A stretch of 64,000 nucleotides of DNA from Pseudomonadota bacterium (lineage in GTDB: Bacteria > Pseudomonadota > Alphaproteobacteria > GCA-2746255): contig JBFMHN010000002.1 of NCBI GenBank assembly GCA_040752895.1, positions 392,368 through 456,367 on the forward strand. The letters run 5' to 3'. The notes beneath the pieces are model-generated. The model ran no database searches. It saw nothing but the letters and a program-made list of their open reading frames with translations, and had not been told where the DNA came from. The position numbers were made by a program, and so were the translations under genes. Shown piece by piece: positions 6,151-64,000 of this stretch. Every line of letters begins with the position of its first letter. Within the stretch, counting starts at the first letter, position 1.

Positions 6151-6191
6151 GCGGGTTTCTTCGCGTATTTCGACAGGACGGAAGAAACGTC

Positions 6192-11616: not shown

Positions 11617-11668
11617 TTTAGGGAAGACCCCGGGAAGCCGTTGAAGACAATGTTTCTTCTTGATTTTA

Positions 11669-46542: not shown

Positions 46543-46559
46543 GGGGCGGGGAGCGCGGG

Positions 46560-47489: not shown

Positions 47490-49742
47490 TTGAATCGTAT
47501 GGCCGACATTCGTCAATTGCGGGGCACGCCGCCGGCTTCGCCCTCCGCGCCGACGTTCGGCGAAGCCGAGGGGGACGAGCTCGACCTCGTCTACCTCTTG
47601 GGCGTGCTGCGCCGGCGCAAATACCTAATCGCCGGCATCGTGTTCCTGATCACCAGCTTCACGGCACTTTTCGTCAGCCAGATCACGCCGCTTTACCGGG
47701 CGGAGGCGTTGCTGGTTCTCGAAGAGAACCAAAGCAACGTCTTGAACATTGACGCCGTCACCAGGGGAATGCGCACGGACTATTACACGAACGAGACGGA
47801 GGCCGCCGTCATCGGCTCGCGCGCCCTTGCCGTCAAGGCGGTGAAGCGGCTCAACCTTGTCGAAGATCCGATGTTCAACCCTTTCCTGGTGCCGCCGCAA
47901 CCAAGCCTTTGGGCCGCGATCGGGGTCTGGCTGTTCGGCAAGGCCGAGGAAAAGGACTGGACAAGCGGCATGACACCCGAAGCGGTCGAGAACTACACGC
48001 TTGAGCTTGTGACGGATTACTACCTTGCCGACCTTTACGTCCAGCCCTCGCTCACCTCGCGGATCATGTCGGTCGGCTATTCGTCCACGGATCCTGCCAC
48101 CGCGGCCAGGCTCGCGAACGCCGCGGCTGAAATCTACATCCTGGACCAGCTCGAGACGCGCGGCGCCGCCACCGTCCGGGCGACGGACTGGCTGAACGAG
48201 CGCGTGGAGCAACTGCGCCTTCGCGTCATCGAATCGGAGCGTCGCTTCGATGTGTTTCGCCGCGAGTCCGGCATCGTCGAGGTCGGCAGCACGAACGTCT
48301 ACCAGCAGCAACTTGCCGAACTCAGCACACAATTGATCGCATCGCGCGGGCAGCGGGCCGAGGCCGAGGCGCGCGAGCAGCAAATCCGGCAATTAATGGC
48401 TTCTTCCGGCAACATCGAATCCGCCGCTGCCGTTATCGATTCGCCGCTCATCCAGAAATTGCGCGAGCAGGAAGCGGAACTTCTCCGCAAGGTTTCCGAG
48501 CTTAAGACCCAGTTCCGGGAAGGGCATCCAAAGCTTCTGTTGGCCCAGAACGAGATCGGCGACCTTCGCGAGAAAATCGCGAACGAGGTGAACAAGATCG
48601 CCCGCAACATCGGGTATGAACTTGAAATCGCCCGCGTGCGCGAGGCGAATTTGCAGACGGAAGTCAGGAATCTGCAACACCGCATCGAGGAGCAGGCCGA
48701 GGCGGAAGCGAACCTGAATTCGCTGGAGAGCGAAATCAAGGCGAACAAACAGCTCTATGAGACGGTTCTTGCCCGCTTCAAGGAAACGAAGGTGCAGGAC
48801 GAGGATCTGATTCAGGCGAACGCGCGGGTGATTTCGCCCGCCGTCGAACCCAGCCGGCCTTACTACCCGAAGAAACGGCTGATGGTGATGGCCGCCCTTT
48901 TTGCCTCCCTTGTCGCCGGCATCGCGCTTGCCTTCATGCTGGAATATCTCGACTCCGGCTTCCGCACGGCCGAGCAACTGGAAAACGTGACGGGTCAACC
49001 GGTGTTGGGGATTTTCCCCTATCTTCGGGACGGCAAGGTGCCGTATCTCGAGGCGGTCGACCGTCCGAACAGCATCTTCGGCGAGGCGGTCCGCCGCCTC
49101 CGCACCTCGCTTGCGCTTTCCGACGTTCACGGGAGGCCGAAAACGCTGATGGTCACCTCTTCCGTGCCGGGCGAAGGGAAGACATCGCTTGCCGTCGCCC
49201 TCGCCGCGTCGGCGGCGAAGTCGGGGCAGAAATGCGTTCTTGTCGATTGCGACCTTCGGCACCCGAGCGTCCATCGCGTCATGGAACTTGCGAACGATCG
49301 GGGCTTGAGTACCCATCTCACCGGCCAAGCCAGCCTCGGCGACGTGCTGGAGGTCGACTTGCGTTCCGGCTTGCGCGTGATTCCGGCGGGGCCCATCGTG
49401 CCGCACCCGGCCGATCTTCTGGGCTTGCAGGAGATGCGCGGCCTGATCCACCGGCTGGAGGAACTTTTTGATTTTGTGGTGCTGGATGCGCCGCCGCTGC
49501 TTGCCGTGTCTGACGCGCTGGTGCTGACGCGCGGCGTGAACAAGGTTATTTTCGTAGTGCGTTGGGCGAAGACGGACCGCAACACGGTCAAGGCGGCTTT
49601 AAGGCAATTGCTTGAAGCCGGCGGCGAGGTGGCCGGCTTGGTCTTGAGCCTCGTCGATATCCGCAAGGGCGCCCCTTACGGATTAGGCTCTTCCGGCCGC
49701 GCCTATTACGAGGGCTACGACCGGTATTACAAGGAAATTTGA
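47490..49742 (+). CDS. Wzc-type polysaccharide co-polymerase/BY-kinase
   Basis: A 750-residue inner-membrane protein controlling chain length and export. It has two membrane helices (about 50 and 470) flanking a Wzz domain and long coiled coils (about 230-440), the YYPKKRLMVMAALFASLVAG segment, then the bacterial tyrosine kinase: Walker A SSVPGEGKTSLA (about 557-568), Walker A' VLVDCDLRHP and Walker B FVVLDAPP. The Tyr-rich tail RAYYEGYDRYYKEI is the autophosphorylation cluster. TTG 47490 is spaced well from GGGGAG; ATG 47499 is an alternative. The opposing Ser/Thr-type phosphatase gene downstream may act on the locus. Confidence 0.93.
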   Translation: MNRMADIRQLRGTPPASPSAPTFGEAEGDELDLVYLLGVLRRRKYLIAGIVFLITSFTALFVSQITPLYRAEALLVLEENQSNVLNIDAVTRGMRTDYYTNETEAAVIGSRALAVKAVKRLNLVEDPMFNPFLVPPQPSLWAAIGVWLFGKAEEKDWTSGMTPEAVENYTLELVTDYYLADLYVQPSLTSRIMSVGYSSTDPATAARLANAAAEIYILDQLETRGAATVRATDWLNERVEQLRLRVIESERRFDVFRRESGIVEVGSTNVYQQQLAELSTQLIASRGQRAEAEAREQQIRQLMASSGNIESAAAVIDSPLIQKLREQEAELLRKVSELKTQFREGHPKLLLAQNEIGDLREKIANEVNKIARNIGYELEIARVREANLQTEVRNLQHRIEEQAEAEANLNSLESEIKANKQLYETVLARFKETKVQDEDLIQANARVISPAVEPSRPYYPKKRLMVMAALFASLVAGIALAFMLEYLDSGFRTAEQLENVTGQPVLGIFPYLRDGKVPYLEAVDRPNSIFGEAVRRLRTSLALSDVHGRPKTLMVTSSVPGEGKTSLAVALAASAAKSGQKCVLVDCDLRHPSVHRVMELANDRGLSTHLTGQASLGDVLEVDLRSGLRVIPAGPIVPHPADLLGLQEMRGLIHRLEELFDFVVLDAPPLLAVSDALVLTRGVNKVIFVVRWAKTDRNTVKAALRQLLEAGGEVAGLVLSLVDIRKGAPYGLGSSGRAYYEGYDRYYKEI

Positions 49743-49760: not shown

Positions 49761-50447
49761 GTGCGGCGAACCCCCGGAAGCCTTGCCCTGTTTGTCCTGC
49801 CGCTTCTGCTTGCCTTGCTTGCGGTTGGCCTCGCCGTTCCCCGGCTCGCCGCCGCCTTCCTTCTGCTTCCCGCCCACGGCATCGTCGAGGCGGCGGGAAA
49901 GGGCGAGCCGGTTTCCGACGCCGCCCTTTCGCGGGCACTCACTGCGAAGACGGCCGCCTTTCGGTGGGTGAGCGACCCCAAGACGCAATCGGACATCGGC
50001 ACCCTTCATCTGCTCGCTGCGCACAGGGCCGGCACCGGAAGCCCGGAGGGGATCCGTTTGCTTGAGGAAAGCGTGACCGCGATTCGCGCAAGCCTCGGTC
50101 TTTCGCCGGCCCAGCCCTATGCCTGGCTCCAGCTCTTTCAGGCCCGCCTCGCGCTTGAGGGGCCCACCGCCGCGGCCAGCCCGCTTTTCGTTCAGGCCAT
50201 CCGCACGGCGCCTACCGAATCCCACATCGTTCTTCCCCGCCTCGAGGTTGGCCTCGCCGTCTGGACGTTTCTGGACGCCGAGGCCGTGCGCCACCTCAAA
50301 GGGCAGGTGGCCCTGGCGGCGCGTTACCATCTGTGGCCGCTCACCGAGATGACGAAGAAGCGGCATGCGCTAAAGCTGGTCCGCGAGGCGCTGGAGGAAG
50401 ATCCCGAATTGCTCAACCAATTCGATGTCATCTATCGCCGGCTTTAG
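49761..50447 (+). CDS. Membrane-anchored protein of unknown function
   Basis: A 228-residue protein with one N-terminal helix (LALFVLPLLLALLAVGLAVP) and an alpha-helical, TPR-like remainder: ALSRALTAKTAAFRWVSDP, LLEESVTAIRASLGLSPAQP, YAWLQLFQARLALEGP, HALKLVREALEEDPELLNQ. The last part reads like a repeat-protein end. GTG 49761 is the start; it follows the kinase gene by 18 bases. It may help assembly of the synthase complex; that is guesswork from context. Its stop overlaps the convergent ligase gene stop. Confidence 0.65.
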   Translation: MRRTPGSLALFVLPLLLALLAVGLAVPRLAAAFLLLPAHGIVEAAGKGEPVSDAALSRALTAKTAAFRWVSDPKTQSDIGTLHLLAAHRAGTGSPEGIRLLEESVTAIRASLGLSPAQPYAWLQLFQARLALEGPTAAASPLFVQAIRTAPTESHIVLPRLEVGLAVWTFLDAEAVRHLKGQVALAARYHLWPLTEMTKKRHALKLVREALEEDPELLNQFDVIYRRL

Positions 50448-51841
50448 GAAGGCGAAACCGCTTCCTCGCGCGCCGACCAGGACTGGGCCGAGGCAACGCC
50501 CAGCAACCCGAGATAGGTGATGGCGACAGCCGGAATCTGGAGGCTGAAATCCGCCAAGGCGTGCACACCAACCAACGCCGTGACGGCAACGCCCGCGGCC
50601 GGGAAAATCGCGTTCCGTCGGCGGCGCAAGGCGCCCAGGAAACAGAGAAGCGTTACGTAGCCGGCCAGAAAGAGGAGAAGCGCGAAGGCCGGCAGGCCGC
50701 CCCCCATTGCGAGTTCCAAGTAGGTGTTGTGGGCATGGTCGATTGTATCGACGTAAAACCGAAAGCCCTCGTCCCGGTAAAGACGGAAACTTTCCTTGAA
50801 GGTGTCGAGGCCAAAGCCGAGGAAGGGTCGGTCCCCGATGCCCTCCAGCGTGCGTTCGTAAATCGCCAGCCGATCGGTCTTCGCGGCGTCGCCCAGCCGG
50901 TTGAAGACTTCCTTTCCGCTGACGGCAAGGATGGCGGCGAGGAGGCTTAAGGCCAACATGCCCCCCACCGCCATGGGCAGGACTTCAATCGAGCGCCGCT
51001 GCTCGCGCAGCCGCATGCCGGCGACGACGGCGAAGGTGCCGATCCCGACCGCGGCGCTCAGGAATCCGCCGCGGGAATGGCTGAGCAGGAGGGCGGTAAA
51101 AAGAATTCCGCAGGCAACGATCAGGAAATAGAAGCGGAAGCCGCACGCGTCGAAAAATCCCAAAGTGTCCTCGGCCGCGATCGGGCTGTGACGCCGGATG
51201 CGCCGGATTTCAGCGAGCAGAAGGGCGAGACAGGCGAGCAAGGTAACGCCGGCGTAGGTCGCGTAGTGGTTACGATTGACGAAGGTGCTGGTTAGCGAAT
51301 CCTGATACGCCCATTTCGGGTACCAGAGAATTTTCTGGCTGCCGCCGAGATGTGCGACGAGGCCATAGATCGCATAGGCAAGCCCGGCCATTGCGACGAT
51401 CCAGAAGATGTTCCTGGCGCGCTTCTCGTTGCGGCCGAGCTGGAAGGCAAGCCAGAAAACGCCGCCATAGGTGAGCAGCCGCAGCACGGCTTGCCTGCTC
51501 GCCTCCGGGTTCAGGCTGATGGCGCCGGCAAGCGGCGCATTCAGCGCCCCCGAAGCCTCCCGCCAAAGCGGGTGGTGCCAGGCTTCCGGCATCCCCCCGC
51601 TTGCCTGCGCCAGGAACCAGAAAACCAGGACGGCGAAGGGAACGACGATCAGGCGGGAACGCCGCCATTCGATCGGGGCGAGCGCAGCGTTCCGGAAGGC
51701 CGCTACTGCCCAAAGCACGACGAGAAACCCGACGCCAAGGCCAAGCAGCGCCCATGCCCACGGCCGGTTGCCGCCGAGCGGCAACGGCGAAAGCGCAATC
51801 AGTGTGCCGAGCGACCAGAAAAGGAAGGTGCCCGCGTTCAA
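50444..51841 (-). CDS. O-antigen ligase/polymerase family protein
   Basis: A 465-residue membrane protein with about eleven hydrophobic helices and a large periplasmic loop. The Wzy_C/WaaL hallmark is present: STFVNRNHYATYAGVTLLAC, ALLLSHSRGGFLSAAVGIG, RLAIYERTLEGIGDRPFLGFG and DHAHNTYLELAMGGGLPAF. It either polymerises repeat units or ligates the glycan; a second polymerase-like gene lies at 56.5 kb. The start is TTG within TTGA, overlapping the upstream gene stop by 4 bases. Confidence 0.87.
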   Translation of the reverse strand: MNAGTFLFWSLGTLIALSPLPLGGNRPWAWALLGLGVGFLVVLWAVAAFRNAALAPIEWRRSRLIVVPFAVLVFWFLAQASGGMPEAWHHPLWREASGALNAPLAGAISLNPEASRQAVLRLLTYGGVFWLAFQLGRNEKRARNIFWIVAMAGLAYAIYGLVAHLGGSQKILWYPKWAYQDSLTSTFVNRNHYATYAGVTLLACLALLLAEIRRIRRHSPIAAEDTLGFFDACGFRFYFLIVACGILFTALLLSHSRGGFLSAAVGIGTFAVVAGMRLREQRRSIEVLPMAVGGMLALSLLAAILAVSGKEVFNRLGDAAKTDRLAIYERTLEGIGDRPFLGFGLDTFKESFRLYRDEGFRFYVDTIDHAHNTYLELAMGGGLPAFALLLFLAGYVTLLCFLGALRRRRNAIFPAAGVAVTALVGVHALADFSLQIPAVAITYLGLLGVASAQSWSAREEAVSPS

Positions 51842-53283
51842 TAGGCGTTTTCCTGCATGAAGGGTACGAGAAAGGTCAGAAAAAGAATCTTGATGTCGAA
51901 AAAAAGCGACCAGTTGTCCACGTAGTAAAGGTCGTACTGCACCCGGCGCCGCATTTTTTCGAAGGTGTCCGTCTCTCCGCGCAAGCCGTTTACTTGCGCC
52001 CAGCCCGTGATGCCCGGTTTCATGCGGTGCCTGCCGAGATAATCGTCGATGATGGCGGCGTATTGCTGGTTATGGACGACGGCGTGCGGCCGCGGGCCGA
52101 CCAGCGACATGCGGCGCTGCAACACGTTGATCAGCTGCGGCAGTTCGTCGAGACTGGTGCGACGCAGGAAGGCGCCGACCCGCGTTATCCGGGGGTCCCC
52201 CCGCCGCGCCTGGGCAACGTCGCCTTCGGCCTTCGCCGCCGACGCGCTTTCCTTCGTGTGGCACATCGTCCGGAATTTGTAGACGTGGATCGGGTTGTTG
52301 TAGAAGCCGTACCGCCGCTGGCTGAAGATGACAGGGCCGGGGCTGTCCAGCTTGATGACGGCTGCGATCAGGAGCATGGCCGGCGAAAGCAGGAGCAGGA
52401 GCAAGCTTCCGAGAACCAGGTCCTCGACGGTTTTGGTGACGAGGTCCCAGCCGCTCAAGGGCCGTTCCTGAACCGTCAGCATTGGCCACCCGGCCACCCG
52501 GTCGATCTTGTGAATGGGGATGGGGGCGTTCACGATTTCCGGGCAGAGGTAGATACTCAAGGGAAGCGTGCGCAGCTTCTTCAGGACGCCCAGCAAATTT
52601 TCACCCTCCGACCAGGGAATGGCGACGATGACTTCGTCCACCTTGTGCGTCTGGCTATAGGCCGGCAAATCCGCGACCGTGCCGAGCACCGGAAATTCGC
52701 CCACCTTCTCGGGCAAGGACGCCCTCGCGTCGTCGAAGAAGCCGACCAGCCGTATGCCCGACGCCGCGCCCTGCATCAAGTGTCTGGCCAGCGCTTCGCC
52801 AAGCGGCCCGGCGCCGACGACGGCGGCGTTCAGGGTCAAATCGCCCGTTCTTCGCCAGCGGCGGGTTTGCAGAAGGGCGAGAAAACGTAAAAAAAGAAAA
52901 CCGACGAAGCTGAAGGAAAACCAAAGCGCCGCCCAGATGCGCGAATAGTCCTCCGACGACTTCGTGAAGTAGGCGATAAAAACCAGCGTCGCGAGAACGA
53001 CGATCCAGGTAAACGCCAGGCGGCCGAATTGAGGAATCGGCACGGTAATATCGGAGAAGTTATAAAGCCGCGCGAAATGAAAGTAGTTGATCGTCAGCAG
53101 AACGCCGGCGGCAAGGGCGGCCTGATAGTTTGTCGGCAAGTCGAAATCCGCTTCGCGGAGCCAGTAGGCGAGAATGCCGGTCGCGGCGACGACGCAGGCA
53201 TCTCCCACCCGCAGCGCGCCCATCAGGAACGTCTGCAGGTCGGTCGAAATCGTCCTCGAACGCAATGGCGGGTTCGCGTGCAC
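51838..53283 (-). CDS. Undecaprenyl-phosphate sugar phosphotransferase (WcaJ type)
   Basis: The initiating transferase that places the first sugar-1-phosphate on undecaprenyl phosphate. About 481 residues: N-terminal membrane helices, a CoA-binding-like domain (AAVVGAGPLGEALARHLM, VDEVIVAIPW), a membrane helix at SLLLLLLSPAMLLIAAVI and the C-terminal catalytic domain with DSPGPVIFSQRRYGFYNNP, KFRTM, RRTSLDELPQLINVL, MSLVGPRPHAV and PGITGWAQVNGLRGET. The open frame begins at 53574; GTG 53283 is a reasonable start, ATG 53223 a shorter one. No good Shine-Dalgarno is seen for either. Confidence 0.9.
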   Translation of the reverse strand: MHANPPLRSRTISTDLQTFLMGALRVGDACVVAATGILAYWLREADFDLPTNYQAALAAGVLLTINYFHFARLYNFSDITVPIPQFGRLAFTWIVVLATLVFIAYFTKSSEDYSRIWAALWFSFSFVGFLFLRFLALLQTRRWRRTGDLTLNAAVVGAGPLGEALARHLMQGAASGIRLVGFFDDARASLPEKVGEFPVLGTVADLPAYSQTHKVDEVIVAIPWSEGENLLGVLKKLRTLPLSIYLCPEIVNAPIPIHKIDRVAGWPMLTVQERPLSGWDLVTKTVEDLVLGSLLLLLLSPAMLLIAAVIKLDSPGPVIFSQRRYGFYNNPIHVYKFRTMCHTKESASAAKAEGDVAQARRGDPRITRVGAFLRRTSLDELPQLINVLQRRMSLVGPRPHAVVHNQQYAAIIDDYLGRHRMKPGITGWAQVNGLRGETDTFEKMRRRVQYDLYYVDNWSLFFDIKILFLTFLVPFMQENAY

Positions 53284-53438
53284 AAAGATAAGGATACGTA
53301 AGGTATCGCCGCAATCAAGCGAAAGGCGCCGCCGCGCTGGCGGCGAGAACGGGCTTGCAGGAACCCCGTGCTTGCCGATCCCCGTCCGGAAGCGCCTTTT
53401 CCCTGGCGATTTCGTCGCGGAAGGGACATATCTTTGGC

Positions 53439-54209
53439 ATGCGCCAGGATTTTCCCAGCCTTGCCCGCCGGGCGGCCGCGTCGGAGAAAGAAACCCGTCC
53501 GCCCGAGGGGACCGTCGTTTACGCCATCGGCGACATCCACGGCCGGGCGGATTTGCTTGGGGAATTGCAGGCAAAAATCCGGACGGATGCCGGCGCGCGC
53601 GAGGGGCCGCGCAAGGTCATCGTCTATCTCGGCGACTATGTGGATCGCGGCCTGCAATCGCGCGAGGTGCTCGACCGTCTGCTTGATGAGACGCTTCCCG
53701 GCTTTCTCTCCGTTCCCCTCAAGGGCAACCACGAAGAGGCGCTGCTGAAATTTCTCGACGACATCGACATCGCTCCCGGCTGGTTCTCGTACGGCGGGGA
53801 TACGACCCTTTACAGCTATGGCGTAGAGGTGCCGCGTCCGCCGCTCACGGCGGAGAAACTATTGGGCACCCAGGCCGAATTCCTGCGCAAGCTGCCGAAC
53901 CGCCATCTCGCCTTCCTGCGCGGCCTTCGCCTTTACCACGAGGAAGGGGACTATTATTTCGCCCACGCCGGCGCCCGGCCGGGGCGCGCGCTGGGCGACC
54001 AGGCGGAAGAGGACCTGCTCTGGATCCGGGACGAATTCCTGTTCTCGGCCTATGACTTCGGGAAAATCATCGTGCACGGCCATACGATCGCGCCGGACCC
54101 GGAGTTCCAGCCAAACCGGATCGGCATCGACACCGGCGCCTTCGCCAGCGGACGGCTCACCTGCCTCGTCCTCGATGGCGCCGAACGGCAGATCTTGCAA
54201 ACCGGGTAG
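53439..54209 (+). CDS. PPP-family metallophosphoesterase
   Basis: A 256-residue phosphatase with the calcineurin-like signature set: AIGDIHGRADLLGEL, VYLGDYVDRGLQSREVLD, LKGNHEEALLKFL and the late VHGHTIAPDPE. These supply the two-metal ligands. The family contains Ser/Thr protein phosphatases; similar genes recur in alphaproteobacterial exopolysaccharide loci. It could reverse a phosphorylation in the assembly machine. ATG 53439 is taken; GGAAGGG lies 13 bases upstream. Confidence 0.85.
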   Translation: MRQDFPSLARRAAASEKETRPPEGTVVYAIGDIHGRADLLGELQAKIRTDAGAREGPRKVIVYLGDYVDRGLQSREVLDRLLDETLPGFLSVPLKGNHEEALLKFLDDIDIAPGWFSYGGDTTLYSYGVEVPRPPLTAEKLLGTQAEFLRKLPNRHLAFLRGLRLYHEEGDYYFAHAGARPGRALGDQAEEDLLWIRDEFLFSAYDFGKIIVHGHTIAPDPEFQPNRIGIDTGAFASGRLTCLVLDGAERQILQTG

Positions 54210-54216
54210 TCATTTC

Positions 54217-55299
54217 GTGCCGGACCGCGCCGCGACCGAACGCAACGGAGAGACCGGCTTCTGGCGGCTCGTCACGCGCCCGGAGACGGCTTCCCTCGCC
54301 GTCGCCACGCCCGAGCTTTTGCGCCGTTTCGGCGATCTCCTTTCCCCGGCCTTCGCGCGCGAGGCGCTCTGTGTCGCCGAAGCGCGGGCGGGCAGACCGC
54401 TCCTTGCCCCGGAAGCGGCGGAGAAGAGCCTGCTCTACAACCGCTTTCTCCGGCACAACCAGTTGCGCTGGGTGCGCGAGATCGGGCAGGCCGGCTTCGA
54501 TGTCGTTTATCTCAAAGGCTTCGCCGCGGCGCACACGCTTTACGAGAACCCGGACGCGCGCACGGTCGGCGATCTCGACCTCCTTATCCGGGAGGCGGAC
54601 CTCGACCGGCTCATCCGGTTTCTGGCCGGTCGCGGCTTCCGGTTCGGAGGCGGCGCGCGTTCGCCCTGGGGCTTCATCTCGAAGACCAGCTTCCTTCCCT
54701 TCGTTTCCGCGGACGGTTCCGCCAACCTCGACCTCCATATCGCCCCCGACGCCTACCCGGCGACGCTTGCGCTTTCAACCGAAGCGCTGTTCGCCGAATC
54801 GCAAAAGATCGAGGCGGCCGGCCTGGTGTTGCGCGTTCCCTCCGCCGAGCATGGCTTCTTTCTGCTGCTGACGAACGCCGCGAAGGTGGCCTTCGGGCCG
54901 CTCAGCGTGCGCAAGACCGTGGACGCGATTTGCCTGCTTCGGCGCGTGAAAACCCTCGATTGGGATCGGCTGGGGCGGCTGGCGGCAAAGGGCCGCCTGG
55001 CCAAGCCGTTGCGCGCCTACTTAGCCCTTCTGCGCCACCTCGGGGCCGAAACCGCGGGCGTGCCGGACGCCCTTATGGCGCCCTTCCGTGGGCTTGCCGC
55101 GGCCGAGCTTGGCCGCCTCCTGCACCGCTACGACACGCTCTTTGCGAAAGCGCCCGGCCGGTTCGAAACCTTGCGAACCGAGCTTCTTCTGGGGGGCGAG
55201 CTTCGCGTCGGGCTTTACCGGAACTGGCTTCGCCTGCGAGGTCTCGTCCGGCCTTATGGCGGGCGGCCACCCGAAAAGGGAATCGGTTTCTGGCGTTGA
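54217..55299 (+). CDS. Nucleotidyltransferase-fold protein
   Basis: A 360-residue protein of the uncharacterised nucleotidyltransferase group found in polysaccharide loci. The segment VVYLKGFAAAHTLYENPDAR is followed by TVGDLDLLIREADLDRLIRF, the D-x-D metal motif, and ANLDLHIAP. The C-terminal part is helical. Substrate unknown. GTG 54217 starts seven bases after the phosphatase stop; the longer open frame from 54052 is a shadow of the phosphatase gene. Confidence 0.75.
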   Translation: MPDRAATERNGETGFWRLVTRPETASLAVATPELLRRFGDLLSPAFAREALCVAEARAGRPLLAPEAAEKSLLYNRFLRHNQLRWVREIGQAGFDVVYLKGFAAAHTLYENPDARTVGDLDLLIREADLDRLIRFLAGRGFRFGGGARSPWGFISKTSFLPFVSADGSANLDLHIAPDAYPATLALSTEALFAESQKIEAAGLVLRVPSAEHGFFLLLTNAAKVAFGPLSVRKTVDAICLLRRVKTLDWDRLGRLAAKGRLAKPLRAYLALLRHLGAETAGVPDALMAPFRGLAAAELGRLLHRYDTLFAKAPGRFETLRTELLLGGELRVGLYRNWLRLRGLVRPYGGRPPEKGIGFWR

Positions 55300-55367: not shown

Positions 55368-55661
55368 CCGGCCGAATGTGTTAACGTTTCCTTTGTTAAA
55401 GGCGACCCCCTAGAGACATTGGGAAATATGGCTCCGTTGCTTGGGAAAATCTCCATATTACGCCTGGACGCCGATCGGTATGAATCTGCAAAAACCGAAC
55501 TGGAGATCTTATGCCCCCGGTCAAGCGCGGGGGGTGTTCCGGCCCCGGATGATGACGGATTGTTGGTTGGCGGCGAAAAGTCGGCCGATAAGTGTTTTCA
55601 AGAAAACGGCAAGCGGCCATTGTTTCTAAATATGATTAAACCGACCCCACCGCAGCTCTAA
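55368..55661 (+). pseudogene. Remnant of a TylF-type O-methyltransferase gene
   Basis: After a TAA at 55365 one frame reads through about 97 codons that resemble the C-terminal half of TylF/MycF methyltransferases: VSFVKGDPLETL, then ISILRLDADRYESAKTELEI, CPRSSAGG and DDDGLLVGGEKSADKCFQ. These correspond to the VKGD, LRLDxDxYES, SPGG and DDYG...A motifs of the family. The N-terminal half is gone, the start codon is missing and the last 20 residues do not fit. It marks a decayed gene at the left edge of the AT-richer block. Confidence 0.6.
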
Positions 55662-55677
55662 TCATTCATCGCGTGCC

Positions 55678-56400
55678 ATGCGGGTGCTAAATATAGGGTG
55701 TGGCACGAAGACTTCCGATCGGTGCGTTAACATCGACTGGTCTCCCTATCTTCGGATAAAGAAAAATAAGTTTTTTCGTGCGCTCGTTGTGCCGTTCCTT
55801 AATGAGAAACGGCGGCAGCGCCTGAGCCTGCTATCGGACAACGTGATGGCCCATGATTTAAGAAAGGGCATCCCGTTTCCAGATGCAAGCGTAGACGCCG
55901 TTTATCATTCTCATATCCTTGAACATATTGATCGCGAGGATGTCCTTTCCTTTCAAAAAGAAATTTATCGCGCGTTGAAGCCGCGCGGCATTCAACGAAT
56001 CTGTGTGCCGGATCTGGAAACCCTTGCGCGAAACTATTTAACCAGCCTGGAGCGTTGCAGGGCAGATGAAGCCATGCTCGGCAAGCACGACGGTCATATC
56101 GCAGATATGTTTGAGCAGTGCGTTCGAAGGGAATCCTTTGGCACGAAGCATCAACCGCCCATGCAGAGGTATTTGGAAAATCTAATCTTGGGAGATGCGC
56201 GCAAGCGTGGAGAGACGCATCAATGGATGTACGACGCGTGCAATTTACGATTTATTCTAGGGCAAGCCGGATTTCAGGACATCGCCACCCGTGGTTTTAA
56301 CGAAAGCGATATTCCAGACTGGCAATCTTTCGGCCTTGAGGTGGATGAAGAGGGAAACGAATATAAGCCGGGGTCCTTGTACGTTGAATGCACAAGATAG
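55678..56400 (+). CDS. SAM-dependent methyltransferase (class I)
   Basis: A 240-residue protein with the SAM motif RVLNIGCGTKTSDRCVNIDW, AHDLRKGIPFPDASVDAVYHS and HILEHIDREDVLSFQKEIYR, typical of Methyltransf_11. It probably methylates a sugar or glycan end. Codon use is visibly more AT-rich than in the genes before 55.3 kb, which suggests transfer. No strong Shine-Dalgarno precedes the ATG. Confidence 0.8.
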   Translation: MRVLNIGCGTKTSDRCVNIDWSPYLRIKKNKFFRALVVPFLNEKRRQRLSLLSDNVMAHDLRKGIPFPDASVDAVYHSHILEHIDREDVLSFQKEIYRALKPRGIQRICVPDLETLARNYLTSLERCRADEAMLGKHDGHIADMFEQCVRRESFGTKHQPPMQRYLENLILGDARKRGETHQWMYDACNLRFILGQAGFQDIATRGFNESDIPDWQSFGLEVDEEGNEYKPGSLYVECTR

Positions 56401-56514
56401 AATCGCGAGGGTCTTTCGATGTGTCCGATGCAATTTGCCTTTGGCGCGCCAGAAGAAAGCCGGGCCCTTCGCTTTCATGAAAATATTTCAGGCGTCATTT
56501 AAAAAGAGGCAGTC

Positions 56515-57879
56515 TTGACTCTCGCAAACGTTCGAGACCGGTTGGCTCTTTTCATTCTCTCTTGTTACCTGATTCTCAACTATGGCTTCATGATTCTGCG
56601 CGTGCCGCCAAGCGTTGGCGCGCCGTTCGGCGAGCTGTTGTTGCTGTGCTATCTTCTGTGGCTTACCGATGTGCGGTTTTTACCGCGCTTTTCACACGCG
56701 CTAGTCCTGCCGCCTTTTCTCCTTTGGTGGAGCCTTGGGTTCGGGCAGCTTTTAGTCAATACGCCAGCGCATGGAATGTGGGCGTTTCGCGACGCCACGC
56801 ATGTCATCGAATCTCTTTTTCTTTGGGTTGGTTTTGTTTTTGCGACCAAGGAAGCAAATATCGAGCGTTTCTTCCGGTGGCTTCCCCGGCTGCTTGTGAT
56901 TGGTGTTGTGTACGGCTTGACTTTTCCCTTCAGCGACTTTTTTCAGAACCTTTCGCCCGCGATAATCTCGCCCGCCGGAAATAATGTCACGATCCTCTTC
57001 CAGTACGTAAACTCGTCAGTCATGCTGTTGATGGCGGCAGCGTATCTCATGATTATCCGGCCGAAAACGATCGCTATCGGGCCTATGCTGCTGGCGTCGC
57101 TGCTGCTTGCCTTTGTCGTCGCCTTCTTCCAGGCGCGGACGGTTTACCTTCAGGTGCTCGCAATGCTGCTGCTGTTTGCCTGGCAGTACCGCAGCTCCTT
57201 CGCAAAAATGTCTTCTTCTCTGGCCGTGGGCATGGTTGCTTTTCTCGTCGTTTCCGCGTTGGGCATTCAGTTTACCGGCCGTATCGGAGGCCCCATATCC
57301 TTCGAATTCATGATCGCGCATTTTGCGACGATCATGGGCAAAGGCAGCGGCGAATTGGCGGGGGCGGCTGGGGGCGTGGACCTTCGTATCGGATGGTGGG
57401 TCGATATCTGGGAACGGGTCACGTCCAGTTTTGGAAACCTGTTTTTTGGCTTGGGCTACGGCGAGCCGCTGGTCAAATTCGTCAACCTGGAAGGTTCGAT
57501 CGTTCGCGAACCGCACAATTCCTACATCTCGGTTTTTGCCCGCATCGGCGCGGTCGGTCTCTTCGCCTTTGTTTGGATGCATATAGTGCTTGTGCTGTTG
57601 TGGTCGCGCGCCTTTCGACTGTGCCGTCGGGCGAAATATCGTGTTGGGCAAGAGCGGCTGCTGACCCTTTTCGTCTTTTTCCTTCTAATCTGGATTTTTG
57701 CGATCGGCGAGGATGCCTTAGAGAAGCCCTTTAACACGATTCCCTATTATTTCTTTTGGGGGGTCATCGTTCATTATTCTCTTAACCTTCGGGCAAAACT
57801 AAAGGCGCCGCTTCGTCACCGGCGGCCACTGCGTACGCTTCTTCAAGGCCAAATCCAGGGGCATCCTTCTCGTCCGTAA
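56515..57879 (+). CDS. O-antigen polymerase (Wzy-like)
   Basis: A 454-residue membrane protein with about eleven helices and a WzyC-type core: VVAFFQARTVYLQVLAML, FFGLGYGEPLVKFVNLEG, REPHNSYISVFARIGAVGLF. It likely polymerises flipped repeat units in the periplasm. TTG 56515 follows AAGAGGC. The gene is AT-richer than its flanks. Its last 100 codons have a second, decayed copy at 60872-61178, and its stop lies at the same offset (20 bases) within the glycosyltransferase-like sequence as in that copy. Confidence 0.85.
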   Translation: MTLANVRDRLALFILSCYLILNYGFMILRVPPSVGAPFGELLLLCYLLWLTDVRFLPRFSHALVLPPFLLWWSLGFGQLLVNTPAHGMWAFRDATHVIESLFLWVGFVFATKEANIERFFRWLPRLLVIGVVYGLTFPFSDFFQNLSPAIISPAGNNVTILFQYVNSSVMLLMAAAYLMIIRPKTIAIGPMLLASLLLAFVVAFFQARTVYLQVLAMLLLFAWQYRSSFAKMSSSLAVGMVAFLVVSALGIQFTGRIGGPISFEFMIAHFATIMGKGSGELAGAAGGVDLRIGWWVDIWERVTSSFGNLFFGLGYGEPLVKFVNLEGSIVREPHNSYISVFARIGAVGLFAFVWMHIVLVLLWSRAFRLCRRAKYRVGQERLLTLFVFFLLIWIFAIGEDALEKPFNTIPYYFFWGVIVHYSLNLRAKLKAPLRHRRPLRTLLQGQIQGHPSRP

Positions 57880-57931
57880 CTTCTACGGGCAGGCCGGCGA
57901 TGAAGACGCCGTGTTTGCGAACGGGCGCGCG
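57857..57931 (+). pseudogene. Stub of a glycosyltransferase start
   Basis: These 75 bases match the first 25 codons of the intact glycosyltransferase at 61156-61230 at 64 positions by hand count, reading ILLVRNFYGQAGDEDAVFAN against VLLVHNFYRQPGGEDAVFAN. The start codon is changed to AGG. Downstream the similarity stops and the minus-strand glycosyltransferase gene ends at 57943. Confidence 0.75.
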
Positions 57932-57942
57932 TCGCCGGGCGG

Positions 57943-59097
57943 TCACTCTCTCTTCGTGAGGCGCTTTTTGAGGGATAGATAATTTATATACGCCGTGCCG
58001 TAAGCTTCAACCATCTTGTCCACCGTGAAATTCTCGCCCCAGCGCGCCGCTATCTCGCGAAGTTGCCCCTTATCGAAAGCACCATTCACGAAATCCGCGA
58101 TCAGATTTCCAAGTGCCGTGGCGTTCTCAACCGGCACTTTAAGCGGCCACTCCGGCGGGAGGGTGTCTTTCAAGCCAGGAGCGGATGTGCCGATTACGGG
58201 GACGCCGGCGGCCAGACTCTCGAGGGCAACAAGACTATGCCCTTCAAAACGCGACGGCATAATGACGGCATCGAAGGCGGGAAAAAGGCGGCCGATTCCA
58301 GGTACCGGCGGGTGGAAAAAGACGGGCAACCGTCGTTCGGCCGCTCGATCGGCGCAGGCGCTCTTTTCTTCGCCGTCGCCAAAAGCATGCAGCTCGAACT
58401 TTTCCAACATTTCTTCCGGCAAGCGTTCAAATGCGTCAAGAAGGATGTCGAAACCCTTTTGAGGCATGAACCGTCCGGCAAAACAAAACAGGATCTTTTC
58501 GGCGTCTGCGCCAAATTCGCCAACCAGCGCAGGGCGGTCAAAACATTCTTTCTCGGATATTTTGCGAATACCATTGGGAATTTTCACTTGTATCCGGGAT
58601 TCCGGAAGCCCATATCCTTGTCGGAGCTTTTTGTAAGCATCCCTTGCGCCATCGGAGATATGGACAATTAAGTCATCGCGAAAATTCGATTCAGAGACCC
58701 ACCCCATTAGACGGTGCGTCGGCCACAGCGTGGTGTTGTGAATGGTCCTCGCAGGCGTGATATCCGTCACGCGCCCCGCCAGAGAGAGGATGAAATCCGG
58801 TATATCCGTGTGGGAGTGCACGATGTCCGGATTCCACGCGCGACAGAAAGACGCTAGTCGGAAGGGGGCGGTTAGACTGTTCAGGCGGACATGAGACCCG
58901 CCAATTTCCAAGAATTCCACGCTTGCCCCGGAAAGGCGTTTCTTCTGATCGTCACCCACCCTATTGGCGATCTTGGGCGTCTTCACCGCCACCACGCAAG
59001 AGTCGTGCCCCCGCTGTCTTAAGCCAACCGCCAGGCTGACGGCCACTTCCTCGGCGCCGCCCACCCAAAACGCCGTTATGACCTGCATTATTCTCAT
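57943..59097 (-). CDS. Glycosyltransferase family 4 protein
   Basis: A 384-residue GT-B transferase: MRIMQVITAFWVGGAEEVAV at the start, IVHSHTDIPDF, the donor-site block ILFCFAGRFMPQKGFDILLDA, and the E-x7-E motif in PSRFEGHSLVALESLAAGVP. It adds one sugar to the repeat unit; donor and linkage unknown. It lies opposite to most of the locus, together with the flippase gene upstream of it, and is AT-richer than the surroundings. Confidence 0.87.
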   Translation of the reverse strand: MRIMQVITAFWVGGAEEVAVSLAVGLRQRGHDSCVVAVKTPKIANRVGDDQKKRLSGASVEFLEIGGSHVRLNSLTAPFRLASFCRAWNPDIVHSHTDIPDFILSLAGRVTDITPARTIHNTTLWPTHRLMGWVSESNFRDDLIVHISDGARDAYKKLRQGYGLPESRIQVKIPNGIRKISEKECFDRPALVGEFGADAEKILFCFAGRFMPQKGFDILLDAFERLPEEMLEKFELHAFGDGEEKSACADRAAERRLPVFFHPPVPGIGRLFPAFDAVIMPSRFEGHSLVALESLAAGVPVIGTSAPGLKDTLPPEWPLKVPVENATALGNLIADFVNGAFDKGQLREIAARWGENFTVDKMVEAYGTAYINYLSLKKRLTKRE

Positions 59098-59158
59098 AAA
59101 CGAAAATCCATGATTTCAAAGTGTGGCGCAAAACGATCCGCACAAATAACGCGATGGG

Positions 59159-60442
59159 TTAACGTTTGGCGGGGGCTGATTTAAGGGAGGAAGCCGTCGT
59201 TAAGCCAAACAACAGTTTGCCAATAAGTATTACGTTGGTGATGAATATACCGGCTACCACGCCGGAGGGCCCCATTAGCTGGATCAACGGATACGCGGCC
59301 AGAATGCTGAACAGGGTCATCCAGCAGTAGGCCGCAAAAACGACTTGGGTGCGTTCGATTGCCTGCAGGCCGGATCGCAAAGGCAATGTGAGAAAGATCA
59401 GAGGATAGATCGCGGCCCACCATTGCAAAAGGTATCCATAGCCAACGTAGTCGTCGCCATAAACAAGGGCGAGCCAGTAGTCGGGAGCAATGGCCGCGAT
59501 GACGGCGACGATGGCCATGGCGCCACTGCCGAGCAGCGTTACCCGCCTCAGGTAATCGAATAAAGCTTTCTTGCCGCCGACATGGAAATGCCGCGCCGCC
59601 CGGGTCGGAACGATGTTCTCAAGCCCTTGGAACAGAATGTGGGTGATGCCCATCAAATTCTGCGCCGCCCTTATGGCGCCCACCGCGGTGGTGCCGAGCA
59701 GCGCGCCGGCGGCGATGATGAAAAGATTCCCCGTCGTCCACAGCATCAAGGCCGAAGGCGTCAGCCACTTGGAAAAATGCCAGTGGCGGGAAGCGATCGT
59801 GCGTAGGCTCGCTGCGTTCACCTCGATGCGCCCGACGGTGAATGCCCCATAGGCGGCGGCGGCGGCGGCTATTATCGCAATGACCCATAGCACCCTGGCG
59901 CTGTCCATCGTCTCGCGGAACGAAAGGAACAGCCATATCAGAACGGCGATCTGCCCCAAATAACGGACCGCGTCGTTAGCGAACGCCGCGGCGGCGCGCC
60001 CTCGGGTAAAGAAGTAGCGGCGCAGGAAATCCTGGAACTGGAAGGCAAGCGCGGCGGCGGCCAGGGGAAAGGCCAGGCCTTCCACCCGCCACTCAGGGAA
60101 AACCGTGCCGCTGAGGCGGACGCCGGCGAAAAGCAGGAAGAAGACCGCGCATGAAAAAACGATCTGCTGAACCACGACCGCACCGTAATAGGCCGGGGCT
60201 TCGGCCTCGGCCTGCTTGGGGCCGATGCTCATCATCGGGGAATTGATCGCGGCGTGCTGGATGCTGTTGACGAACAATACCGCCATCCAGGCCAGGGTGA
60301 ACCGCCCAAACTCCTCCAGCCCCAGATAGCGAGCCACTAGGATGCCGGTGAGGAAATTGACGCTGCTGACCATCGTCTGGTCGGCCAGCGCCCAGTTGAC
60401 GTGACTGTAGCGGGTCCACAATCGTACGATCGGCTGAATCAT
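59159..60442 (-). CDS. Oligosaccharide flippase (Wzx-like)
   Basis: A 427-residue membrane protein with about 12 helices, consistent with the MATE/MVF-type polysaccharide flippases: FLTGILVARYLGLEEFGRFT at the start, ANDAVRYLGQIAVLIWLFL in the middle, SGLQAIERTQVVFAAYCWM and GVVAGIFITNVILIGKLLFG near the end. It would move the lipid-linked unit to the periplasmic side for Wzy. It precedes the minus-strand glycosyltransferase by 61 bases. Confidence 0.85.
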   Translation of the reverse strand: MIQPIVRLWTRYSHVNWALADQTMVSSVNFLTGILVARYLGLEEFGRFTLAWMAVLFVNSIQHAAINSPMMSIGPKQAEAEAPAYYGAVVVQQIVFSCAVFFLLFAGVRLSGTVFPEWRVEGLAFPLAAAALAFQFQDFLRRYFFTRGRAAAAFANDAVRYLGQIAVLIWLFLSFRETMDSARVLWVIAIIAAAAAAYGAFTVGRIEVNAASLRTIASRHWHFSKWLTPSALMLWTTGNLFIIAAGALLGTTAVGAIRAAQNLMGITHILFQGLENIVPTRAARHFHVGGKKALFDYLRRVTLLGSGAMAIVAVIAAIAPDYWLALVYGDDYVGYGYLLQWWAAIYPLIFLTLPLRSGLQAIERTQVVFAAYCWMTLFSILAAYPLIQLMGPSGVVAGIFITNVILIGKLLFGLTTASSLKSAPAKR

Positions 60443-60871
60443 GGGGTGCCATCCGCTCCGGCGTTAAGCGCTCTCGTCGCGCGCGGGCGCATCCGCGTCC
60501 AAGGATTAGCTCCGCAGACCCAGAACTTGCAGAAGCGCTAACAGGGTGAACCGGGGCGTCACTACGGGGTAACGCCGCCACGGACAAGGCTCGGTTGCCA
60601 GGCGGTGGGGCCATTCAAGCTCGCTTCGCTGCATCCGAGCCGATTTCTGACTGGCCATAATGCCATGTATGCCCCGAATATAAACGGTGTCGGGCTAATG
60701 GCCTTCGATTCACCCGTCGATGATGTCGGGAGCCGAAAGCATGGCGGTGGCGCTCGCCGATGGAACTACGCTGGCATGAATAAGGAGTTTCCGTCAAGAG
60801 TGGTGCGGATGAACTTGGAGGTCGGAGGCGTTGTTGGTGCAGGGGATCTTGCGGTTGGTGGTGCCGCCGTG
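60443..60871. other. Region without recognisable gene
   Basis: About 430 bases between the flippase start and the wzy remnant. Short open frames exist on both strands but none shows family motifs or a good ribosome binding site. No terminal inverted repeats or transposase fragments were recognised. The last 60 bases may be very decayed wzy sequence. Confidence 0.4.
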
Positions 60872-61178
60872 GCGGTCGGTCTTGCGGCCTTTATTTGGAT
60901 GCATATGATGCACGTTGCTGTGATTCCGCGCCTTTCGGCCGGGCCAGGAACGGTTCCTCGTCCTCCGCGTCTTTTTTCTGCGGATCTGGGTTTTCGCGAT
61001 CGGCGAGGACGCCTTCGAGGAACCGCTCAACGCGACTCCCTATTATTTCCTGTGGGGGATTATTCTCCACTATTCGTTATTCTTGCGGGCGAAGCTCAAA
61101 GCGCCGCCGGCGCCGGCCCGGCGGCCGCTTCGCAGCCTCCTGCGGGGTGAGGCCCATGCGCGTCCTTCTCGTCCATAA
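60872..61178 (+). pseudogene. Decayed wzy 3' end
   Basis: Frame 2 reads AVGLAAFIWMH (60872-60904), then the frame shifts and RAFRPGQERFLVLRVFFL, IWVFAIGEDAFEEPLNATPYY, FLWGIILHYSLFLRAKLKAP and PLRSLLRG continue in another frame to TAA 61178. This matches the C-terminus of the intact Wzy at 57550-57879 segment by segment. Against that copy it is 23 bases shorter, explaining the shift. No start is present. Confidence 0.8.
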
Positions 61179-62340
61179 CTTCTACCGGCAGCCGGGCGGC
61201 GAAGACGCCGTGTTCGCGAACGAGCGCGCGTTGCTGGAATCCCACGGCCATGACGTACGCCCGCTTACCCTCTCGAACGACGACCTCGGCGGCGCCCTCG
61301 CCATGCTGCGGACGGCATGGGAGACGCCCTATTCGGAGCCTTCCCGCCGCCGCATGGCGAAAGCTTTAGCCGAACACGCGCCCGATCTCGTCCACGTCCA
61401 CAACTTTTTTCCCCGGTGGACGCCTTCCATTTTCGACGCCACGCGCGAGGCCGGCGTGCCGTCCGTGATGACGCTTCACAACTACCGGCTGATCTGCCCG
61501 GCGGCGACGCTTTACCGTTCGGGCCGTATTTGCGAGGAATGCGTGACGGGCTCGCCCTACCGGGCCGTGCTGCACGGCTGCTACCGCGATAGCCAGCCGG
61601 GGTCCCTGGCCGTCGCCCGCCTGGTCGCCCGCCACCACCACCGCCGCACTTGGCACGACAAAGTGGACCGCTTCATCGTGCTTACGGAATTCGCCGGGCG
61701 GAAATTCGTCGAAGGCGGCCTGCCGGCCGACCGGCTGCGTGTGAAGCCGAACTTCCTGCCGGCCGTCGGGGCGGATGCCGCGGACGGGCGGGGTCGCGGC
61801 CCCCACGCCCTCTTCGTCGGGCGCTTGAGCGCGGAGAAGGGAATCCAAACGCTGCTGCGCGCTTGGGCGGGGCTTGCGGTGCCGCTCCGCCTGGTGGGAG
61901 ACGGCCCGCTTCTCGATGCGGCGCGCGGTGCCGCGCCGCCTGCGGTTGCCGTGCTGGGCGCGTTGGCCAGGGAAAGGGTGGCCGAGGAGATGCGGCGCGC
62001 CGCCTTTCTCGTGCTGCCTTCGGAATGGTATGAGGGCTTTCCGATGGTGCTGGTCGAGGCCTTCCGGGCCGGCCTTCCCGTCGTCGCCGCGCGGCTTGGC
62101 GCAATGGCGGAAATCGTGGAAGACGGCTTGACCGGGCTGCACTTCGCGGCCGGCCGGGCGGCCGATCTTGCCGAGAAGGTTCGCTTCGCGGCGGCCAACC
62201 CGGAGACGATGCGCGCCATGGGGGAAAACGCCCGCAGAGTCTATGAACGGCGCTACACTGGCGAAGCGAACTACGCACGGCTCATGGAAATCTACGGCGA
62301 GGCGCTGCGGGCCGGGACCGGCGAAGGGGGAAATGGCTGA
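61156..62340 (+). CDS. Glycosyltransferase family 4 protein
   Basis: A 394-residue GT-B transferase: MRVLLVHNFYRQPGGEDAVF, LVHVHNFFPRWTPSIFDA, a Cys-containing block LICPAATLYRSGRICEECVTG, the donor-site stretch FVGRLSAEKGIQTLLRAW and E-x7-E in PSEWYEGFPMVLVEAFRAG. The sequence is GC-rich like the genome backbone. ATG 61156 overlaps the wzy remnant; the frame is open upstream to 60895 but that part is wzy-derived. It ends in TGATG with galE. Confidence 0.9.
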   Translation: MRVLLVHNFYRQPGGEDAVFANERALLESHGHDVRPLTLSNDDLGGALAMLRTAWETPYSEPSRRRMAKALAEHAPDLVHVHNFFPRWTPSIFDATREAGVPSVMTLHNYRLICPAATLYRSGRICEECVTGSPYRAVLHGCYRDSQPGSLAVARLVARHHHRRTWHDKVDRFIVLTEFAGRKFVEGGLPADRLRVKPNFLPAVGADAADGRGRGPHALFVGRLSAEKGIQTLLRAWAGLAVPLRLVGDGPLLDAARGAAPPAVAVLGALARERVAEEMRRAAFLVLPSEWYEGFPMVLVEAFRAGLPVVAARLGAMAEIVEDGLTGLHFAAGRAADLAEKVRFAAANPETMRAMGENARRVYERRYTGEANYARLMEIYGEALRAGTGEGGNG

Positions 62341-63332
62341 TGCGCGTGTTGGTCACGGGGGGTGCCGGCTACATCGGAAGCCAGACGGCCTTGCGGCTTG
62401 CCGAGGCGGGCCACGATATCGTCGTCCTCGACAACCTGTCGGCCGGCCACCGCTGGGCGGCGCCTGGGCATGCGCTGGTCGTTGCCGATCTCGCCGATGC
62501 GGATGTCCTGGAAAGGCTTTTCGAGGCCCGCGCCTTCGAGGCGGTCGTCCATTTCGCGGCCCATATCGAGGTCGCCGAATCGGTCGCCAACCCGCTCAAA
62601 TACTACCGGAACAATACCCAGAACACGCTGGCCCTTATCGATCGCTGCCACCGTTTCGGCGTCCGGCACTTCGTCTTTTCCTCGACGGCGGCCGTCTACG
62701 GTATGCCAGAGGACGGCCGCGTCGCCGAAAACGCGCCCCTTCTTCCCATCACCCCTTACGGCGCCTCGAAAAGGATGAGCGAGCGCATTCTCGAAGACGT
62801 GGCGAAGATTTCTTCCCTTCGCTACGTCGTCCTGCGGTATTTCAACGCCGCCGGCGCCGACCCCGAGCTTAGGCTCGGCGAAGCCCACGACCCCGAAACC
62901 CACCTCATTCCGATCGCCGTGCAGACGGCCTTGGGGTTCCGCCGCCGGCTTCAGGTCTTCGGCACCGACTACCCGACGCCGGACGGCACCTGTGTCCGCG
63001 ATTACATTCACGTCGACGATCTGGCGATGGCGCACATCGCCGCCCTCGACCACCTGGCTAGGGGAGGCGGATCGCTTACCCTCAACTGCGGCTACGGCCA
63101 CGGGGCAAGCGTGCGCGAGGTCATCGCGATGGTGAAGGAGGTCAGCGGCTTCGATTTTGCGGTCGAGGAAGGGCCAAGGCGTCCGGGCGATCCGCCGGCG
63201 CTGGTGGCGGACACGCGGCGCATCGGCGAGGCGTTGCGCTGGAAGCCCGCCCACGACAATCTGCGGTTTATCGTCGAGACGGCGTTCAACTGGGAACGGA
63301 AATACCGGGATGACTTTGCCCGGAAAAAGTAA
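62340..63332 (+). CDS. galE: UDP-glucose 4-epimerase
   Basis: GalE interconverts UDP-glucose and UDP-galactose, supplying the glycan precursor. The 330-residue protein has the NAD motif VTGGAGYIGSQTALRL, DNLSAGHRWA, HFAAHIEVAESV, FSSTAAVYGMPE, catalytic YGASK, LRYFNAAGAD and DYIHVDDLA. Start ATG shares one base with the preceding stop. Epimerisation of N-acetylated substrates is possible. Confidence 0.93.
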   Translation: MRVLVTGGAGYIGSQTALRLAEAGHDIVVLDNLSAGHRWAAPGHALVVADLADADVLERLFEARAFEAVVHFAAHIEVAESVANPLKYYRNNTQNTLALIDRCHRFGVRHFVFSSTAAVYGMPEDGRVAENAPLLPITPYGASKRMSERILEDVAKISSLRYVVLRYFNAAGADPELRLGEAHDPETHLIPIAVQTALGFRRRLQVFGTDYPTPDGTCVRDYIHVDDLAMAHIAALDHLARGGGSLTLNCGYGHGASVREVIAMVKEVSGFDFAVEEGPRRPGDPPALVADTRRIGEALRWKPAHDNLRFIVETAFNWERKYRDDFARKK

Positions 63333-64000
63333 GCAAACGAAAACCGGCCTGGTCATCGGCGCGCCGGTGACGGTGGGGGATCGGGCCTTGGCCAGGGCGG
63401 CGATCCTTGCGGCAGCACGCCAGGGCCAGGGCGGCTATGTTTGTGTCGCGAACGTCCACATGGTGACGACGGCAAGGCGCGACCCCCGCCTTCTGGAAGC
63501 CATGCGTCGCGCGCTCTGGGTCACGAGCGACGGCATGCCACTGGTCTGGGCGCTCCGGCGCGGGGGGCATAAGGAAGCCTGCCGGGTGGCGGGGCCGGAT
63601 CTCCTGTGCGACCTTCTGGCGGCGGCGGAGAAAGAAAGCCTGCCGGTCTATTTCTACGGCGGCGACGGCGAGACGGCGGTGCGCCTCAAAGACGTGCTGG
63701 CTGAACGCTATCCCCGGCTAATCGTGGCGGGGATCGACGCTCCGCCCGCCCTCGCCCTCGAACCCGTCGTCGAGCCGGTTTTCGTCGAGCGGCTGAACGC
63801 CTCGGGCGCGGCCCTTCTCTTCGTGGGCCTCGGCTGCCCGAAACAGGAATACTGGATGGCGGCCCACGCCCCCCATCTCAAGGCCGTCTCGCTTGGCGTG
63901 GGGGCCGCCTTCAACTTTCTTGCCGGGACGGTTCGCCGCGCGCCGGGCTGGATGCAGAATCTGGGGCTGGAGTGGCTGTTCCGCCTGCTGGCCGAACCGC
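63310..64000 (+). CDS. WecG/TagA/CpsF family glycosyltransferase, 5' part
   Basis: The frame is open from ATG 63310 to the window end (230 codons). It shows the family blocks CVANVHMVTTARRDPRLLEA, SDGMPLVWALRRGG, VAGPDLLCDLLAA, YFYGGDGETA, FVGLGCPKQEYWMAAH and GVGAAFNFLAGTVRRAPGWM. Members transfer N-acetylmannosamine(uronate)-type sugars or glucose to lipid-linked intermediates. It overlaps galE by 23 bases; the last residues, about 20 of the usual 250, are cut off. Confidence 0.9.
   Translation, partial: MTLPGKSKQTKTGLVIGAPVTVGDRALARAAILAAARQGQGGYVCVANVHMVTTARRDPRLLEAMRRALWVTSDGMPLVWALRRGGHKEACRVAGPDLLCDLLAAAEKESLPVYFYGGDGETAVRLKDVLAERYPRLIVAGIDAPPALALEPVVEPVFVERLNASGAALLFVGLGCPKQEYWMAAHAPHLKAVSLGVGAAFNFLAGTVRRAPGWMQNLGLEWLFRLLAEP

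Follow-up and report, generated by a model that had tools for sequence, protein, structure and literature searches.

A Duplicated wzy–Glycosyltransferase Junction as a Probable Scar of Piecewise Replacement in a Wzx/Wzy Exopolysaccharide Cluster

The 64-kb window analyzed here (the whole stretch of DNA under study, from genome G000) contains a Wzx/Wzy exopolysaccharide cluster whose repeat-unit part was, in our judgment, likely replaced piecewise by at least two imports, in the steps detailed below. What we see is not a new kind of system but a known process, in which Wzx/Wzy loci exchange modules and keep remnants as scars. The case is unusually readable, with modules stacked on one another and a glycosyltransferase stub present in two species.

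A Wzx/Wzy-Dependent Locus

By its predicted parts, the cluster is a Wzx/Wzy-dependent exopolysaccharide locus. The polyprenyl-phosphate hexose-1-phosphate transferase encoded at 51838–53574 scores 492 bits against the WcaJ model TIGR03023 (cut-off 410.75), and the Wzx and Wzy proteins score modestly above their Pfam cut-offs, with 30.7 bits for MatE (cut-off 24.9) and 32.8 bits for Wzy_C (cut-off 31.7). A Wza-type export protein (46512–47204) matches export models and a Wzc-type chain-length/tyrosine kinase (47490–49742) matches eps_transp_fam/autokinase models; for these two genes most equivalog cut-offs are not reached, and the eps_fam kinase cut-off is reached. A second Wzy_C/O-antigen-ligase gene lies on the minus strand (50444–51841), opposing the direction of the remaining genes. 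The WcaJ-type initiating transferase is also encoded on the minus strand, and both genes keep their positions in the congeners. A promoter and terminator scan returned nothing above chance level.

Two Copies of the wzy–Glycosyltransferase Junction

The segment at 57550–57939 (copy A, on the left) pairs with 60872–61238 (copy B, on the right), with 280 of 361 aligned bases identical and 33 gap bases in a local alignment that scores 221, where 200 shuffles reach 34 at most. This confirms the original prediction, made from the letters of this DNA, of a duplicated junction between wzy and a glycosyltransferase gene (GT) with reciprocal decay. Copies A and B form the sole direct repeat within the 64-kb window (BLASTN, E ≤ 1e-3). 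On the left, an intact plus-strand wzy (56515–57879; Wzy_C/O-antigen ligase family, Pfam PF04932), which we assign below to an imported type, is followed by a plus-strand 5' stub of GT (57857–57939) that has lost its start codon, AGG replacing ATG. On the right, a frameshifted 3' remnant of wzy (60872–61178, plus strand) precedes an intact GT4-type GT (61156–62340, plus strand). The agreement of 64 of 75 bases over the GT start and the position of the wzy stop codon, a TAA 20 bases inside the GT sequence in both copies, had been noted in the same prediction and are reproduced from the sequence, as are the two minus-strand genes between the copies, which encode a GT4 family protein (hereafter GTm; 57943–59097) and a MatE/Wzx protein (59159–60442). 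To these we add a decayed wecG-type gene in the spacer between wzx and copy B (60443–60871).

The wzy sequence of copy B contains a 24-base gap as well as upstream indels and stop codons, and its final 80 codons are in frame to a stop that matches that of copy A. Identity between the copies at codon positions 1, 2, and 3 is 78, 81, and 48%; the last 80 codons of copy B are thus still patterned by codon position as coding sequence is, which indicates that this wzy ceased to function late, measured against the age of the genus. Both native wzy remnants, the one at 60933–61178 and the one in the congener G002, remain in frame as far as the stop within the GT start, which may serve coupled translation of GT or simply reflect recent decay.

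Arrangement in the Congeners

Four genomes of the genus were compared, namely G000 (2.29 Mb in 28 contigs, 99.87% complete with 0 contamination, the locus lying on a 517-kb contig) and its three congeners in the set of genomes searched, G001, G002, and G003, whose regions were set against that of G000 gene by gene. GT lies directly behind wzy in G001 and G003, with a single junction and no insert, an arrangement that the original prediction had named as support for its reading. In G002 the order is wzy, GT stub, minus-strand GTm, a minus-strand methyltransferase gene, a wzy remnant of ~40 codons, and intact GT. The stub is joined to the 3' end of the minus-strand GTm at an identical position in G000 and G002, with a GT part of ~80–95 bases; the start of copy B differs, at wzy nucleotide ~1036 in G000 and ~1240 in G002. 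A relative that carries both copies nominally speaks against the original prediction; the A copies cluster, with the B copies apart, so the proposed history is revised rather than overturned.

The left conserved flank is formed by NTP5, a PF14907 nucleotidyltransferase gene (54052–55299, plus strand). In G001, G002, and G003 it is followed directly by a plus-strand wzx, which is absent from this position in G000. On the right, copy B can be aligned contiguously between G000 and G001 from 60942 into the flank, which holds a native galE-like epimerase gene (62340–63332, plus strand), followed by an intact, native wecG/wagA-type glycosyltransferase gene (63310–64000, plus strand) that continues past the window end.

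A Congeneric Block with a Younger History than Its Flanks

The region 55678–59121 of G000 is colinear with G002, without a break, at 79.4% nucleotide identity over 3.4 kb, taking in a SAM methyltransferase gene (MT; 55678–56400, plus strand), wzy, the stub/GTm junction, and GTm; outside this block, identity between G000 and G002 is ~68–74%. The block shared with G002 and G003 opens with MT; homology to G002 runs from the MT start codon to ~25 bases upstream of the GTm start. The protein encoded by the intact wzy is 81% identical in amino acid sequence to its homolog in G002, 79% to that in G003, and 66% to that in G001. Among the sampled genomes GTm was found only in G000 and G002, and a search for its source returned no further match at E ≤ 1e-40 in 385 genomes of the class and 398 of the phylum. 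An 80-codon frame (55419–55661, plus strand) bordering the block on its left is the remnant of a TylF-type O-methyltransferase C-terminus (PF05711 positions 192–239 of 264, E 1.1e-4) that is unmatched in the congeners' loci.

To separate time from selection, we compared the fourfold degenerate sites of shared codons. Identity at these sites between G000 and G002 is 66.0% in the block versus 50.2% in the flanks (z 5.1), and between G000 and G003 it is 63.3% versus 48.8% (z 3.9). Between G002 and G003 there is no excess (56.2% in the block versus 58.5% in the flanks), which indicates that these two genomes inherited the block vertically; no excess was found in any pair that includes G001. The relationship of the block to G002 and G003 is more recent than that of the flanks, and the simplest reading is that G000 was the recipient and that the donor belonged in or near the G002 lineage. 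Measurement of GC across the locus, which had been suggested as a check, gave 0.50–0.56 in the block, 0.61–0.69 in the flanks, and 0.60 in wzx. The block is indeed lower than its flanks, but the blocks of G002 and G003 are equally low (0.50–0.56), so this is no mark of foreign origin, and we dropped GC as proof.

In G003, wzy is block-like (~80%) to nucleotide ~975 and native-like (~70%) thereafter, a pattern that likely reflects a scarless crossover in the same part of wzy as in G000 and G002. The G003 gene also ends early, at a stop about twelve codons ahead of the usual one (L076, ~11590–11629), so that the overlap of wzy with GT has probably been lost in this genome. Elsewhere in these loci, a pair of genes for a CDP-glycerol phosphotransferase and a cytidylyltransferase (L075 reverse complement, 4878–6624, in G002; L076, 7394–9138, in G003) is 82% identical between G002 and G003 versus 75% in the flanks, which suggests that the pair may be another exchanged module in the locus.

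The Native Junction and the Age of the Stub

A tree of the wzy tails groups copy A of G000 with copy A of G002 (98/97) and copy B of G002 with the tail of G003 (92/92), and rejects a pairing of the two G000 copies (AU p 0.016). The GT tree agrees with the rpoB tree for the four genomes, (G000,(G001,(G002,G003))). From the tail tree and this agreement it follows that the wzy tail and GT at 60872–62340 belong to the native locus, which agrees with the predicted loss of the 5' part of the native wzy.

The stubs of G000 and G002 share 46 of 79 bases (58%), which fits neutral decay of both from the time of the block's common ancestor, the block having a fourfold-site identity of 66%. Since G002 has the identical stub/GTm junction, the stub was not formed on entry into G000, and we infer that it was already dead in the donor and is older than the transfer. 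Stub A is nearest to the GT of its own genome (67/80). Gene conversion between stub A and GT of copy B was considered, the stub favoring the latter 13:1 over G003 and 10:3 over G001; the copy B GT is the least changed of all copies, with a branch of 0.04, and hence we make no claim of conversion.

A wzx Module of Probable Distant Origin

The wzx gene is the sole member of its family in the G000 genome. Its product is 61% identical in amino acid sequence to that of G010, a genome from a different family of the class, versus 51% (range 49–52%) to those of the congeners; GT shows the reverse, with 60% to G010 versus 67–72% to the congeners. The neighboring WecG/TagA/CpsF glycosyltransferase pseudogene (60506–60742, minus strand) consists of ~31 N-terminal and 43 C-terminal codons, the middle having been deleted. 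Its N-terminal part scores 68 against one G010 gene (G010b) and 19 against the native gene, and its C-terminal part reaches 108 with each of the two G010 genes, compared with 60 for the native gene (shuffle maxima 31–53). In both G010 and G000, wzx is directly preceded, on its own strand, by a gene of the WecG/TagA/CpsF type. The pseudogene beside wzx is therefore unlike the wecG of the genus itself and stands in the G010-type order. Identity, synteny, and the neighboring pseudogene together argue that wzx is probably a separate module of distant origin; in the wzx tree a single clade of the wzx genes of the four congeners is not rejected (AU p 0.16). The G010 genome, which is fragmented and has 7% contamination, carries three GT and three wzx homologs on short contigs (C644, C360, C747, and C580; L087–L090). 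These copies of a related polysaccharide locus probably come from several strains or from a mixed bin, and the owner of the G010 locus type is uncertain.

The original prediction of a foreign wzy–GT–wzx cassette that entered at the junction is thus modified. The import of wzy agrees with the fourfold sites and the tail tree, but the block begins with MT at 55678 and not at the wzy–GT junction. Nor was there a single cassette; the insert is composite, with MT, wzy, the stub, and GTm of congeneric type, and with wzx and the wecG remnant resembling a more distant lineage. As for wzx, the plus-strand gene that follows NTP5 in the congeners is gone in G000, and the minus-strand wzx belongs to a separate module outside the congeneric block. 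Given that rpoB places G000 outside the other three genomes, to speak of a lost native wzx assumes that the arrangement shared by the congeners is ancestral.

Proposed History and Alternatives

We propose that the donor belonged to the G002 lineage or one near it and that its wzy–GT junction had already been interrupted; its MT-to-GTm segment would have passed to the G000 lineage, together with or before a wecG–wzx module of more distant origin. Between NTP5 and the wzy tail, these imports would have taken the place of the native wzx, of the variable genes, and of the first kilobase of wzy. Recombination, either illegitimate or over very short homology, would have placed their right end within the resident wzy tail, so producing the duplicated junction. 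The redundant copies, namely the 5' part of the native wzy and the imported wecG, would then have decayed, and the genes kept would be the imported wzy and wzx together with the native GT, galE, and wecG. On the evidence of four genomes, the first interruption in the donor lineage could have been either a single-crossover insertion or a linear import with an illegitimate end.

The first of these two routes can be made more specific as a Campbell-type insertion, in which a circular or tandem donor carrying the wzy tail, the GT start, GTm, and cargo recombined by one crossover in the wzy tail. Such an event is compatible with the history proposed above, and would supply an origin for the first scar preceding the transfer into G000. 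When an internal fragment enters by a single crossover, the left junction has wzy whole and GT cut short, and the right junction the converse, and the switch in the G003 wzy at nucleotide ~975 is close to the start of copy B at ~1036. We nevertheless regard this version as rather unlikely, given that the differing starts of copy B (~1036 in G000, ~1240 in G002) require later deletions, that we saw no remnant of a mobile element or circle, and that the identical anatomy would follow from linear import if the right end were illegitimate. Also unlikely, though slightly less so, is the notion that cassettes in the genus enter repeatedly at the wzy 3' end and the GT start overlapping it, an import restoring the C-terminus of the polymerase, which would serve as landing site; the crossovers of this reading would lie inside the last 400 bases of wzy, clean in G003 and scarred in G000 and G002.

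Explanations that dispense with import fare much worse. A local tandem duplication of wzy–GT, with GTm and wzx then inserted and reciprocal decay setting in, would leave just the anatomy of intact–truncated and truncated–intact pairs that we observe, and the closeness of stub A to the GT of its own genome fits it; however, copies A and B of G000 are not sisters, copy A grouping with its counterpart in G002 and the pairing being rejected in the tail tree, the block has its excess of fourfold-site identity with G002 and G003, and the short branch of the copy B GT accounts for the likeness of the stub, so that we consider a local duplication without import of wzy very improbable. Placing the duplication in the ancestor of the genus, with vertical inheritance and secondary loss in G001 and G003, would accommodate both the presence of both junctions in G000 and G002 and the position of G000 outside the other three in the rpoB tree. 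It requires two independent clean losses, makes the stub/GTm junction as old as the genus, leaves the greater fourfold-site similarity of block than flanks unexplained, and conflicts with the codon-position bias of copy B, which is that of a recently working gene; we give it slightly less credence still. Finally, a metagenome assembly might have joined the locus versions of two strains, as polysaccharide loci differ between strains, the congeners include MAGs, and G000 is itself a 28-contig assembly. The independent G002 assembly has the identical stub/GTm junction, the G000 genome is nearly complete and free of contamination with the locus inside a large contig, and decayed pseudogenes arise by evolution and not by assembly, which makes a chimera the least credible of these accounts.

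Under the proposed history of piecewise import, the locus shows stepwise cassette exchange in one uncultured lineage, from an interrupted donor segment through a distant flippase module to the decay of redundant copies. The set that was retained, imported wzy and wzx with native GT, galE, and wecG, hints at the genes that have to match a new repeat unit and at those that are interchangeable.

Comparison with Known Systems

The variable repeat-unit genes of G000 sit between conserved flanking genes, in agreement with the general model, invoked in the original prediction, in which Wzy-dependent loci are exchanged by homologous recombination in conserved flanks around such genes (PMC6249986). In contrast to that model, the right end in G000 lies inside a gene and left a scar, and two modules from different sources are stacked, one of them inverted. 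Modular in-place replacement of wzx, wzy, and GT genes, together with wzy remnants, is also seen in the galactose-initiated O-antigen clusters of Salmonella, where the remnants decayed by serial deletions along differing paths and group D3 has a partial wzy duplication (PMC3715488). Several of the Salmonella junctions carry insertion sequences or H-repeat remnants, whereas we noticed none in G000, and the lineages compared here are far more diverged than those of Salmonella. The closest published parallel is the cps island of Neisseria meningitidis, with an intact galE1 and a truncated galE2, where the resident galE2, truncated by illegitimate recombination into galE, still lies next to the imported region (PMC5349592). 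In both cases, an import leaves an intact and a 5'-truncated copy, of which the truncated one is phylogenetically the resident. The meningococcal copies, which involve galE, are entire regions repeated in inverse orientation, so that the island can invert, whereas the G000 copies are direct, 0.4 kb long, 70% identical, and situated at the wzy–GT junction.
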